The notes under the pieces are model-generated. The model was not told the DNA's origin and did not search any database. It saw nothing but the letters and a program-made list of their open reading frames with translations. Source: Candidatus Sabulitectum sp. (GTDB lineage: Bacteria > Fermentibacterota > Fermentibacteria > Fermentibacterales > JCC-6). Taken from it: a stretch of 64,000 bases of DNA. The stretch spans positions 32,728 through 96,727 of the forward strand of contig JAGLOJ010000014.1 of NCBI GenBank assembly GCA_023139045.1, written 5' to 3'. Position numbers and translations under genes: made by a program. Shown in pieces: positions 31,822 to 64,000 of the stretch. Position 1 is the stretch's first letter. Every line of letters starts with the position of its first letter.

Positions 31822-32892
31822 TCACAGCATACAGGAAATGCCCAGGTTTATTATTGTGTATGAGTCGTCTACATGGTCAGACTGCTCATCGGGAAAAGCT
31901 GTGTCTTCTCTGGATCTGAACCTGTTCAAAACTCCTCCACCTGCGGTGAAACGGCCCACTCGTCCGGAGAAACCCATGCCAAAGCCAAAACCAGCTCTGT
32001 TTGCAACCCGGTTGTCGTCAAAGCTTACTGAGACAAGAGCTTCCAGGCTTTTTGTAAGAGGCATACTTAAAAAAAGTTTTCCCAGAAAAAGATTTTTGTC
32101 AAATGGAGAGGTGATTTCTGCTTCAAACCCCAGGGTTGTCTTTTTGAGATGTTCAGCATAGGCGCTTCCACCAAAAGCCAGAATGTCTTCCATGTACTCG
32201 GTTTCCGAAGAGTAGGAAACACCTGATTTAAAAAGGTCTCCGGTTAATGCCAATCCAGTATGCCACGCGAATTCGCTGCTGTTTTTAGACCAGGTGTATA
32301 ACGAATCAGGGATAAGGAAATGAAAACTGTTGAAATTGTACTGGTATTCTGCCGCAGCCCGGCGAACACCACCCGAAAAACCTGCGGACAGAGGACCGGC
32401 AATTACCATGGACACACTGCCCATAGCCTCTATCTGGGAACCACTGGATTCGAGAAGTGCAATACCAATTTCCGGATCATCAGGATCATCGTAGATAAGA
32501 GTCATCCCGTCATAACCGAATTCTGCTACTTTGACTATTCCTGCACCTAATGTAATGCCTCCCGCGGGATAAACCACAGCAGCCAGCCCGTTGCTGTTCG
32601 TCATCAGCGTTCTTAAAGTTTTATCTAAATCTGATTCAATCACTCGCTCTGCCCATGATATGGATGAACCTGAAAGCTGAATGGAAAAGGGGTGTACTGC
32701 GACCTGAGCAGGATTTGTGAATATGCTTGCCGGTTCTGATACTCCGACAGCACGCACAGTTCCCAATGCCACTGTATAGGGGGAGAATCCACCGAGAACG
32801 GTTCCATTTGTTATCGCGTCATAGTACCCGAATCCGAAGGCATGAGTACTCAAAATGGACAGAATTACGACGAAACGAGTGAAGACTCTCAT
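31822..32892 (-). CDS. putative outer membrane beta-barrel protein (paralogue of 22713-23780)
   Basis: Signal peptide; FGFGYYDAITNGTVLGGFSPYTVALGTVRAVGVSEPASIFTNPAQVAVHPFSIQLSGSSISWAERV. Confidence 0.65.
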   Translation of the reverse strand: MRVFTRFVVILSILSTHAFGFGYYDAITNGTVLGGFSPYTVALGTVRAVGVSEPASIFTNPAQVAVHPFSIQLSGSSISWAERVIESDLDKTLRTLMTNSNGLAAVVYPAGGITLGAGIVKVAEFGYDGMTLIYDDPDDPEIGIALLESSGSQIEAMGSVSMVIAGPLSAGFSGGVRRAAAEYQYNFNSFHFLIPDSLYTWSKNSSEFAWHTGLALTGDLFKSGVSYSSETEYMEDILAFGGSAYAEHLKKTTLGFEAEITSPFDKNLFLGKLFLSMPLTKSLEALVSVSFDDNRVANRAGFGFGMGFSGRVGRFTAGGGVLNRFRSREDTAFPDEQSDHVDDSYTIINLGISCML

Positions 32893-43117: not shown

Positions 43118-45265
43118 GTGGATGCTAAAGCCGATGAACTGGTAGACTTTTTTGGGTCCCCCTACCTGGAACAGCTATGGAAGGCTTCAACCGGTGCTCT
43201 GGTTGTATGCGATGCCAACAGGCAGATTCTTCAGGTCTGTCCGGGCTTCACCGATTTGTTCCTGATTCCAGCCGCAGACTGCATCGGACATGACCTTGAT
43301 GAGCTGATCACACCTGCCCAGTTTCTGCCTGAATCCGAGTGTATTTTTGATAGCGCCATTACCGGAACACCAGTATCTCTCACTACAACGAAGGTGAAAA
43401 GCAACGGTGAACTTGCCAGAGTGTTTCAGGTAACAGTGCGGATTATTGCCGATACAGGCGATAAACTTGCCTGTTTTGTTTTTAAACAGATTCCGGAAAA
43501 TTCAAGACAGAGAGCAACAGATAAATGCGATGACAGGGAACTTCTGAACAACGCCTTTGAGAACTCGTTTGAACCATCTCTTTATTCTGATACTGACGGT
43601 AATGCTGTTCGTGCCAATACTGCATTTCACTCTGAATTTGGCTGGACGCACGAAGATATAGCAGAGCAGAGCATTGCAGAAATGTTTATACCACTGTCAA
43701 TCAGGCCCGAAGCAGAGTACATAAATTCAATGCAGAGGGCTGGCAGAGTTCTCCGCCTGAGAACGTTAAGGAAAAAGAAGAATAACAGCACCCTGCAGGT
43801 TTCACTGATTTGCGCTCCTCTGAATTCACAGACTTCGCAAACTGAAACAGGGTACAGAATCTACAGAACTCCAGATTCCAGGAGCCGGACCACAGCAGAC
43901 GTTATCGCCAGGAATGATTTCAGGGAGTGTCCTTATCCGGGGCTGCACACCGGAATGTTTTTCCACGCACGAGTCGATGAAATGAGAACGATGGAATTCA
44001 TCGCTCCCGGCTCAGCATCATATGCCGGATACTCTGAAATTGAATTGCTGTCAAAAGCAAGGCCTTATGCCACCATTATTCTGAACGAAGACCGTAGTAT
44101 GGTCTTGAAGGCAATAGAGGAGTCTCTGGAAAAGCGAAAAGATTACAGTATCACCTACAGAATAAAAAACAGCTCAGGAGACACTCTCTGGGTAATGGAA
44201 CATGGCAGGGCATATTTCATGACAGGGGATGAACCGAATTTCTGTGTTGGATGCATCATAGATATTTCTGAAACAAAGAAAGATCGAGATAATTTATCTA
44301 TGGCCAGAGATCGGATCGAGAAGCTCCACAGTGTTGCGGCAGAACTCCAGCAATCCCGTTCCGAGGGAGAAATTTACCGGATTTGCGCCGAGGCAGGGCA
44401 ATCCATTCTGAACGGTGCATGCAGCTCTGTATTCATCCGGTACGAGCAGGAGATGAAACAGGTGGCCTCCTCCGGCAGGGAACACTACAACTGCAGCAGG
44501 GAATGCAGTCCGGGTATGGTGGAATTGACTCTGAGTACAGTGAGTCCCTGCTATTTCAGTTCCAGGGATCTCGTGGAGGATTTATGCCCGGCAGGAAGCT
44601 CCGGAGCCTGCTTTCGATTGAGTGACAAGGCAGTCTTTCAGATAATCTCCAAGGGCAACAACGTCTTTGGAAGCATCGATACAAGAATCACGGAACTACT
44701 GCTGGGGTATACTCAACAGGGACTCAAGCGCCTGGCGCTTCAGCACCAGTTGATCAATCAGGCACTCCACGACCCTCTCACCGGTATACACAACAGAAAT
44801 TACTTCAATCGGATTATCGAATTGGAAGAACTCAAAGCCCGAAGACTTGGTTCATCCATCGGCTTCATAATGGTGGATGTGGACAAATTCAAAACAGTAA
44901 ATGACAAATACGGCCACCAGACTGGAGATCATGTTCTTCAGGAAGTAGCAAAGATTCTCGGCAATGCTCTCAGAAAAACGGATACAGTGCTGAGATACGG
45001 CGGGGATGAGTTCCTGATAATTCTCACCAGAATGGCAACGGATCACTGCCACAAAGTCGAAGCCCGAATCAATAATGCCATAGCAAAGTCCAGGGTGTTG
45101 CATATGCCTGACGGAGAGAAGATCACCGTTTCAATGGGACACGCCTTCTGGACACCTCAAGCGAAAGAATCCATAGACGATATACTGGGTATGGCTGACA
45201 GCATAATGTACGAAAACAAAAGAAAAAAATTCAGGAGCGTGTCTGACAGTAATTGCTCTGAATAA
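43118..45265 (+). CDS. PAS-domain sensor diguanylate cyclase
   Basis: PAS-like segments; DPLTGIHNRNYFNRII ... MVDVDKFKTVNDKYGHQTGDHVLQEVAKILGNALRKTDTVLRYGGDEFLIIL. Confidence 0.9.
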   Translation: MDAKADELVDFFGSPYLEQLWKASTGALVVCDANRQILQVCPGFTDLFLIPAADCIGHDLDELITPAQFLPESECIFDSAITGTPVSLTTTKVKSNGELARVFQVTVRIIADTGDKLACFVFKQIPENSRQRATDKCDDRELLNNAFENSFEPSLYSDTDGNAVRANTAFHSEFGWTHEDIAEQSIAEMFIPLSIRPEAEYINSMQRAGRVLRLRTLRKKKNNSTLQVSLICAPLNSQTSQTETGYRIYRTPDSRSRTTADVIARNDFRECPYPGLHTGMFFHARVDEMRTMEFIAPGSASYAGYSEIELLSKARPYATIILNEDRSMVLKAIEESLEKRKDYSITYRIKNSSGDTLWVMEHGRAYFMTGDEPNFCVGCIIDISETKKDRDNLSMARDRIEKLHSVAAELQQSRSEGEIYRICAEAGQSILNGACSSVFIRYEQEMKQVASSGREHYNCSRECSPGMVELTLSTVSPCYFSSRDLVEDLCPAGSSGACFRLSDKAVFQIISKGNNVFGSIDTRITELLLGYTQQGLKRLALQHQLINQALHDPLTGIHNRNYFNRIIELEELKARRLGSSIGFIMVDVDKFKTVNDKYGHQTGDHVLQEVAKILGNALRKTDTVLRYGGDEFLIILTRMATDHCHKVEARINNAIAKSRVLHMPDGEKITVSMGHAFWTPQAKESIDDILGMADSIMYENKRKKFRSVSDSNCSE

Positions 45266-45319
45266 CCTGCACAAGTGTCGACCAAGCCCATTTTAAAGCG
45301 TTTGTGGCAGGTTCATTCG

Positions 45320-45333
45320 GTTTTTCGAAAAAC
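45320..45333. repeat. 14-bp palindrome downstream of GGDEF gene
   Basis: GTTTTTCGAAAAAC. Confidence 0.8.
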
Positions 45334-45484
45334 TATATTGTCTTGAATACTATCCATGCAATTCATATACTACTCCTCCGCTACTCTGCTGACCGGATCT
45401 TCTTAACATGTTTGCCTTATTGGCTTGATACGTTTTATCATACTTTTCGAGACAACCTGTAATTCACGACATGACAGATCTTGC

Positions 45485-45518
45485 TTGACGCAACATTACA
45501 ATGTAACTACATTACAAT
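45485..45518 (+). promoter_or_regulatory. brnT promoter overlapped by a repeated operator-like motif
   Basis: TTGACG-17-TACATT; ACATTACAAT direct repeats at 45493-45502 and 45509-45518; palindrome TTACAATGTAA at 45496-45506. Confidence 0.55.
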
Positions 45519-45519
45519 C

Positions 45520-45807
45520 ATGAAAACGCTGCATTTTGAATGGGATCCTGAAAAAGCCAGGATCAATGCTGAAAATCATGAGGGAGTTTCCTTCAAGGAA
45601 GCGGAAAGTGTTTTTTATGATGAACGGGCAATTGAGTTTTATGACGAACAGCATTCGGAATCAGAGAAAAGGTTTCTAATGCTGGGATTGAGTGCAAGAC
45701 TTCGCTTGCTTCTTGTATGTCACTGCGTAAGAGAAAATAATTCTGTCATTCGAATAATCTCAGCCCGAAAAGCGACAAAGAGAGAATCCAAGCACTATTG
45801 GAGGTGA
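45520..45807 (+). CDS. brnT: BrnT-family toxin
   Basis: FEWDPEKARINAENHEGVSFKEAESVFYDERAIEF...RIISARKATKRESKHY. Confidence 0.9.
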   Translation: MKTLHFEWDPEKARINAENHEGVSFKEAESVFYDERAIEFYDEQHSESEKRFLMLGLSARLRLLLVCHCVRENNSVIRIISARKATKRESKHYWR

Positions 45808-46034
45808 TGAAAATGAAGGACGAGTATGACCTTTCCCAAATGAAGTCAAGAAGTAACCCATACGCTAAACGTTTAAAAAAACAGATTACTCTTCGGTTAC
45901 AACCTGAGATAATTGAGTACTTCAAATCGTTATCCGAAGAATCAGATATTCCGTATCAGAGCCTGATTAACCTGTATCTCCTTGATTGTGTGAATAGCCA
46001 TCGCAAATTGAAGATGGATTGGGCGACAGGTTAA
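45798..46034 (+). CDS. brnA: BrnA-family antitoxin
   Basis: Overlaps brnT; KQITLRLQPEIIEYFKSLSEESDIPYQSLINLYLLD. Confidence 0.85.
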   Translation: MEVMKMKDEYDLSQMKSRSNPYAKRLKKQITLRLQPEIIEYFKSLSEESDIPYQSLINLYLLDCVNSHRKLKMDWATG

Positions 46035-62524: not shown

Positions 62525-62786
62525 GAAACCTGAAAGAACATCTCAACACGGACACCGACTACACCAACCACACTCTTCCCGAATCCCCAACTGTTAATAA
62601 CAAGACTCCAGCAGCTGCGGCATATACAGCAGCTTGTCAACATTGAGAAATACGATGTTAGTCTACACTTACGGGTCCGATTGGGATATCTTTGCACAAT
62701 TTACATGCCTTGACAGAGTGTATTGTGCATTGTATCCTCAAGCATTAAACTCGGATACTTTTTGAACAGCAGCTGTATATACATCG

Positions 62787-63510
62787 TTGGGCGGCCTATC
62801 TTCATTTCTTTTCGTCCAGAGAATGATAATTGGAATGTGATTATGCGTTGGTTAGTCTCTTGGGACCTTGCAAGCGGGATTGTGGCACCCGCTGTCGTAG
62901 TCGGCATAAGCGTGATGGTGTTACTGCCACGCGCTCTAGCTCGGGGCGAGTCACTCTATGCGCTACCGTTAGTTCTGCTGATTGTTATTGCAGCCACAGC
63001 GCTGATGTTCTGGTTGATCCGCTTGAGCTTTGTGAACTCGCAAGGGTCGAAACGCCCACTCATGAAGCTGGGCCTTCTTTTGTATAGTATCGGCCTGACA
63101 TCCACAATTGGGTTGTTGGTGATTACGACTGGCAAGTTGCTCAATCATGTTCTGCGCTTACACCCTCTATTTCACTATGAAACCGATACGGTTTATTGGA
63201 TCATCTCCGTTTGGACGCTTTTAGAAGGCACACATCATTACGCTTACAAACTGATGTATGGTCGCAGAGATGCTCTTGCCGGCATGCTTATGGATGGCGG
63301 TTTAATAGACCTGCGACGCCCAATTGGTGGAGCAATTGGTATTCAGTTGCTGAGAATGAGAAGGCAGCGATAGCAAATATTCTCGATCAGGATATTTTTC
63401 TGGAGTTCGCTCGCGGTTGTGTATTGCTTTGAACCAGGTATGGGCCGCCCAACACTCGCTGCAGCCGACCCGCCCCCACTGGCGCTCCGGCGGGCGGATG
63501 AGCTGGGTCG
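62787..63510 (+). mobile_element. candidate solitary integron-type gene cassette
   Basis: GTTGGGCGGCC (62786-62796) and inverted GGCCGCCCAAC (63443-63453) bracket one small ORF; joining the two ends regenerates GGGTCG|TTGGGCGGCC, completing an attC-like site. Confidence 0.5.
62843..63373 (+). CDS. multi-pass membrane protein, hypothetical (cassette cargo)
   Basis: MRWLVSWDLASGIVAPAVVVGISVMVLLPRALARGESLYALPLVLLIVIAATALMFWLIRL... Confidence 0.6.
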   Translation: MRWLVSWDLASGIVAPAVVVGISVMVLLPRALARGESLYALPLVLLIVIAATALMFWLIRLSFVNSQGSKRPLMKLGLLLYSIGLTSTIGLLVITTGKLLNHVLRLHPLFHYETDTVYWIISVWTLLEGTHHYAYKLMYGRRDALAGMLMDGGLIDLRRPIGGAIGIQLLRMRRQR

Positions 63511-63512
63511 GC
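63447..63512 (+). repeat. attC-like folded site
   Basis: GCCCAAC (RYYYAAC) then GCCGACCC (63464-63471) ... GGGTCGGC (63505-63512) inverted repeat with GC-rich interior. Confidence 0.5.
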
Positions 63513-63550
63513 AATAATAGATATCGCTAAATCTTGGAAAGGATTTGCCA

Positions 63551-63781
63551 ATGATAAGAGGTAAAAGAGCTCTACTTCGTCCGATGAAGAAAGAAGATAT
63601 AGCAATACAACACGAATTTTACCAAGATATTTCAATTCAGGTTTTGAATGGTGGCTTTCCTCACGTTTCACCTGTGGAGCGAGCACAGCAATTATATGAG
63701 AATTTCACAAAAAAAGATCCAGAGGCAGATTGTTTTGCCATTGAAGCGGAAGTTCCCTTTTTAGGGTTCACCTCCCAATGA
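63551..63781 (+). pseudogene. GNAT acetyltransferase, C-terminally truncated
   Basis: MIRGKRALLRPMKKEDIAIQHEFYQDISIQVLNGGFPHVSPVERAQQLYENFTKKDPEADCFAIEA then stops at 77 codons; typical domain is about twice as long. Confidence 0.65.
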
Positions 63782-63798
63782 ATACAACCTATTGCTAT

Positions 63799-64000
63799 TT
63801 AAGAATTTAACTTGCGTTTGTTAAGCTTTTTCTTAGTGGCTACATCAAGGTTCGACATAGCGATTGCTGGAGGCAATTCGATGTTTAGTGTTTCAAGTAA
63901 TTGACGAGACAATTCACGAGGTTTAGGTATTCGCTCCAGTTCTGAAGAGCCTACTTTCTCAATATACATTCCAGCCATCGAGGTAGGACTGCCAGTTACC
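63799..64000 (-). CDS. partial protein, C-terminus only (possible transposase)
   Basis: Minus-strand frame open to window edge: ...VTGSPTSMAGMYIEKVGSSELERIPKPRELSRQLLETLNIELPPAIAMSNLDVATKKKLNKRKLNS*. Confidence 0.35.
   Translation of the reverse strand, partial: VTGSPTSMAGMYIEKVGSSELERIPKPRELSRQLLETLNIELPPAIAMSNLDVATKKKLNKRKLNS

Follow-up and report, generated by a model that had tools for sequence, protein, structure and literature searches.

By its sequence, the 724-bp segment near the right end of the window is an integron gene cassette that carries one open reading frame (ORF) and a genuine attC site. The window is the whole 64,000-nucleotide stretch analyzed, positions 32728 to 96727 of contig C46 in a 3.70-Mb draft genome of 205 contigs (G000); C46 is 96.7 kb long and ends at window position 64000. 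The cassette probably entered the chromosome by integron integrase (IntI)-mediated insertion at a secondary (“attG”) site, with a foreign attC of a mostly proteobacterial type. Cassette insertion outside integrons is already known, largely from laboratory assays. The kind of event is therefore not new, and the cassette is a clean natural example from a little-studied phylum; its value lies in the readable ends, the foreign attC, and a supporting series within the genus.

Cassette structure and classification

Table 1. Features of the cassette and its surroundings (window coordinates)
Feature	Position	Strand	Description	Basis
Promoter-like sequence	62710..62738	+	TTGACA-17-TATCCT; host flank upstream of cassette	Consensus scan
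GTTGGGCGGCC	62786..62796	+	TTGGGC would form the R' box once the cassette is circular	
Gene cassette	62787..63510	+	724 bp; crossover G62786/T62787 on the left, after G63510 on the right	Sequence, rebuilt circular junction
Cassette ORF	62843-63373	+	176 aa; membrane protein, mostly helical by prediction; not assigned to a family	
Integrated attC part	63447..63510	+	R'' 63447-63453; L'' ~63458-63467; L' ~63495-63503; terminal G63510	R1 match, cmlA attC likeness
Right host flank	63511..63746	+	Leader, then GNAT acetyltransferase gene (starts at 63551, truncated)	
Insertion-sequence-like repeat	63747..64000	.	Cuts GNAT gene; contig ends within repeat	

The 11-bp sequence at the left end of the cassette has its exact inverse at 63443-63453, and these are the sole two copies across the 3.70-Mb genome. 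For core-anchored perfect inverted repeats of 11 bp (starting with GTTRRRY, arms 300 to 1,500 bp apart), 0.01 was expected per window and one was observed. The 3' end of the cassette, GGGTCG, is followed by GCAATA. Circularization of the segment restores GCCCAAC...GTTGGGC, in which the R'' box GCCCAAC is complementary to the GTTGGGC of the circular form, and the candidate site then reads GCCCAAC-ACTCGCTGCAGCCGACCC...GGCGGATGAGCTGGGTC-GTTGGGC. The ORF has the same orientation as the attC, which lies on its 3' side, and both fall within the cassette boundaries. An earlier note, made from the bare sequence, had described the core with its inverse, the single ORF, and the terminal folded segment, had foreseen that circularization would rebuild an attC-like site, and had read the whole as a single cassette between non-attC DNA on both sides; the cores, the ORF, and the folded segment were found at the positions it gave. 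Its overall interpretation is largely right, as supported by the attC model match described below and by the ORF searches, in which no relative carried the ORF without the core ends; a relative of that kind would, according to the note, have counted against it.

Those searches yielded no homologues of the ORF in 42 genomes of the phylum, in plasmids, or in GTDB contigs by the methods used; a weak match in congener G003 was rejected, as it runs antisense to a helicase-like gene. Structure prediction for the product was poor (pLDDT 62). Cassette genes usually have no detectable relatives, which is silent on their function.

Simple scans for R boxes and folding gave 59 matches in the real sequence and 91 in reversed controls and, being no better than these controls, were replaced by a covariance model (R1) of 15 sites, 8 from plasmid cassettes and 7 from integrons of related genomes, with the candidate left out. 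The base pairs of R1 covary strongly. Its best match in the 64-kb window was 63447-63512 on the + strand (23.8 bits, E = 0.0019), the integrated copy with its R' half missing, so that the covariance-model match named in the earlier note as a test was obtained, here with our own model. The integrated attC by itself scores modestly, and an Rfam search returned nothing relevant. In the L boxes, GCT (63458-63460) pairs with AGC (63501-63503), CA with TG, and CCG with CGG, with an extrahelical G at 63461, as in the attC of the cmlA cassette. Because the L'-side spacer length and the extrahelical G are the same as in cmlA, the pairing, which had been called not textbook, is in fact close to textbook.

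By description the cassette is a SALIN, with exactly one attC, one cassette, and no integrase nearby; this descriptive label of IntegronFinder output is assigned here by home-made covariance models. The cassette resembles a CALIN in that the genome does encode an integrase, though not near the cassette, but a CALIN has at least two clustered attC sites without an integrase, and only one is present here: the nearest further attC-like site, a remnant, lies on the opposite strand at a distance of ~18 kb. Nor is this a complete integron with intI beside the cassette, as no IntI (TIGR02249) was found anywhere on the 96.7 kb of C46.

Origin of the attC and the integron of the genome

A BLAST search of plasmids with the site gave ~1,140 records at 90 to 95% identity; the listed matches of that kind span query bases 7 to 32 (92.6%), and the two that were inspected are both the attC of a cmlA cassette. 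With the cmlA1/cmlA5 resistance cassettes of class 1 integrons the site has in common R''-L'' (27 bp, 92.6%), the L'-side spacer lengths, and the extrahelical G, whereas the gene and the terminal structure of the attC are different, and kinship is limited to the recombination site. When GTDB genomes were searched with a degenerate R''-L'' pattern, the matches that passed R1 as attC were mostly proteobacterial, the genera including Salinisphaera, Rhodanobacter, Frateuria, Dokdonella, Halomonas, and Stenotrophomonas. The reconstructed site is 75 to 80% identical to several of these mostly proteobacterial attCs, whereas its identity to attCs of its own clade does not exceed 64%; one 99-nt site at 88.6% was discounted, as that figure was reached only via long gaps.

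The genome itself contains ~50 attCs of another type, which are ~80 nt long and AT-richer; most of them are on short contigs or close to the end of a contig, the pattern expected from a large integron fragmented by assembly. In a model of these native-type attCs (R2), the candidate scores 12 bits. Since the native sites are of a different, AT-richer type, the cassette looks imported, and it suggests uptake of proteobacterial-type cassettes by a clade whose own attCs are of another type. Some native attCs (loci L125, L127, and L130) have R boxes that are fully complementary yet depart from the RYYYAAC/GTTRRRY consensus, such as CTACAAC/GTTGTAG and CTAGAAC/GTTCTAG.

Two integron integrases of the genome score above the TIGR02249 cutoff, one on contig C126 (473 bits) and one on C140 (345 bits). 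The C126 protein shares 52% identity with IntI1, and both its tyrosine-recombinase residues and its ALERKY region, which is specific to IntI, are conserved. The remark in the earlier note that no integrase was in view therefore holds for the window and for the whole of C46 but not for the genome. C126, C140, and ~25 mostly small contigs would make up the large integron of ~50 attCs fragmented by assembly, and intI on C126 runs in the direction of the adjoining cassette array.

The proposed insertion site and competing explanations

To the left of the cassette lie priA and 95 kb without an IntI match. The region 62710-62768 recurs with 83% identity on contig C145 (9059-9118), upstream of a lipoprotein gene, and the C145 copy continues without a cassette. 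The two copies of this leader have an inverted repeat, GTATCC...GGATAC, followed by T5. The promoter-like sequence is weak when taken alone, as the consensus scan found one against 1.9 expected in shuffled sequences; with such a sequence upstream and the ORF pointing forward, transcription of the ORF from a host promoter is plausible. On the right, homologues of the GNAT gene are chromosomal in congeners G002 and G012 (193 and 190 aa), and the repeat that truncates it has a 96% copy at the end of contig C186 and short matches at further contig ends. The right side is known for 490 bp, up to the contig end inside this repeat. Neither flank is an attC or the attI of an adjacent intI (no further attC within 17 kb, C46 free of IntI, and 490 bp covered on the right side).

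The reconstructed target is ATACATCG^GCAATA, i.e., G^GC. Published targets at secondary sites follow GNT or GWT (PMC3518468, PMC4618277), from which the implied target departs, being one base off GNT. The secondary-site insertion proposed in the earlier note agrees with the non-attC flanks but sits uneasily with the GNT/GWT rule, which was not considered there; either the rule is looser for the integrase responsible or the junction was altered after insertion. The 16 bases that precede the crossover resemble the left junctions of the genus, both those of attI sites and those of lone cassettes, with 13 of 31,006 positions scoring as high, a likeness that is only suggestive, since this was a post hoc test on a set in which some sequences are related. 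The joined flanks were not found as an empty site in 45 genomes, and the region downstream of priA varies between congeners.

On the insertion reading, an integron integrase would have acted on the circular cassette and recombined its attC with a chromosomal site that is not an att site, and the empty site before insertion would have been ATACATCGGCAATAATAG. The enzyme would most simply be one of the two encoded in the genome itself. The cassette would have been placed with its ORF forward between the promoter-like sequence downstream of priA and the GNAT leader, where the ORF could be read from the host promoter. We infer from the sequence the insertion event, the integrase responsible, and the putative expression of the ORF and mobility of the cassette. 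The reading is favored by the attC model match, the cmlA-like R''-L'', the rare inverse cores, the closer likeness of the attC to proteobacterial sites than to those of its clade, the presence of IntI in the genome but not on C46, the left-junction likeness, and the lone cassettes of congeners, above all the one that splits a methyltransferase gene, and it is weakened by the G^GC target, the failure to find an empty site in 45 genomes, the contig end 490 bp downstream, and the modest attC score. The attG insertions of Loot et al. (2024, Nat Microbiol, doi 10.1038/s41564-023-01548-y), as described in papers that cite that work, likewise concern a chromosomal cassette at a non-attI, non-attC site with the G end conserved; those came from an assay with GNT/GWT targets, whereas the present case is natural, from an uncultured phylum, with G^GC as the target and the insertion inferred.

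A cassette that is the last survivor of a decayed array (integron or CALIN), its integrase and companion cassettes lost or beyond the contig end and its 3' junction formed by a later deletion, is distinctly unlikely. Such an origin would be in keeping with the contig end in a repeat 490 bp downstream, the attI-like left ends without an integrase elsewhere in the genus, the right junction without the expected TT, and the decayed native attC at 45252-45329 in the same window. However, the side on which the integrase would be expected is occupied by priA and the 95 kb free of IntI matches, what follows on the right is a GNAT gene, which has homologues in chromosomes, rather than a cassette with a second attC, and the candidate attC is not of the native type. 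It is very improbable that an assembly or binning error joined a cassette contig of another organism to this one: the draft is in 205 contigs, the attC looks foreign, and the cassette is near a contig end, but the flanks look native (the left recurs on C145, and on the right both the GNAT gene and the repeat are related to sequences of the genus or of the genome itself), and the join points would have to coincide exactly with the cassette ends. Equally hard to credit is the reading in which an ordinary gene happens to lie within an inverted repeat that arose by chance and is followed by a terminator-like hairpin, because, although GC-rich hairpins after genes are common and the R' half is absent in place, the R1 match, the likeness to the cmlA attC, the pattern of the extrahelical base, the 0.01 expected repeats, and the finding of no terminator-like site at the 3' hairpin of the cassette led to its rejection.

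Lone cassettes in the genus and a decayed attC elsewhere in the window

Insertion of single cassettes outside integrons also has parallels among congeners. Each of the 13 genomes in the genus has attC matches. An empty site is most clearly seen, as judged from comparison of relatives, for the insertion on contig C55 of G004 (locus L237, 1773-2757), where a lone cassette encoding a toxin of the ParE type and a ribbon-helix-helix antitoxin lies at CTACATTG^TTAAAAG. Joining its flanks restores one open SAM-dependent methyltransferase frame. The methyltransferase is contiguous in ~20 relatives, including the genome studied here, and is split at the insertion point only in G004; in G001, two matches are partial, both at the end of a contig. 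The targets of the other lone cassettes in the genus are mostly G^TT, versus G^GC here. On contig C24 of G010 (L229, 1915-3961), two RelE-type toxin-antitoxin cassettes are separated by ~120 bp in the central part of a 241-kb contig, between a GTP cyclohydrolase-like gene and a GatE-like gene.

That the IntIs of the phylum routinely seed single cassettes chromosome-wide, some of them carrying foreign attCs, next to host promoters and at targets less strict than GNT, is a tentative generalization and rather unlikely. If it were true, genome-wide insertion, and not the array, would be a regular route of gene gain in the phylum. Natural cases with readable ends would allow the target rule and the frequency of insertion to be measured from genomes.

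The left ends of cassettes on C191 of the genome studied (L133, near 2969), on C41 of G002 (L136), and on C24 of G010 (L229) share GGATACACCG..GCAGTAnAATCATTG^TT, which is also common to sequences at the attI position beside intI in other genomes. These left ends are apparent orphan attI copies, with no intI seen nearby. Within the window, a decayed attC of native type, without R boxes, lies at 45252-45329 on the - strand (R2, 32.7 bits, E = 5.4e-5). It overlaps the 3' end of a diguanylate cyclase gene and adjoins genes for a BrnT-type toxin and a putative antitoxin (45481-46034), and the region is possibly a second, older lone cassette.
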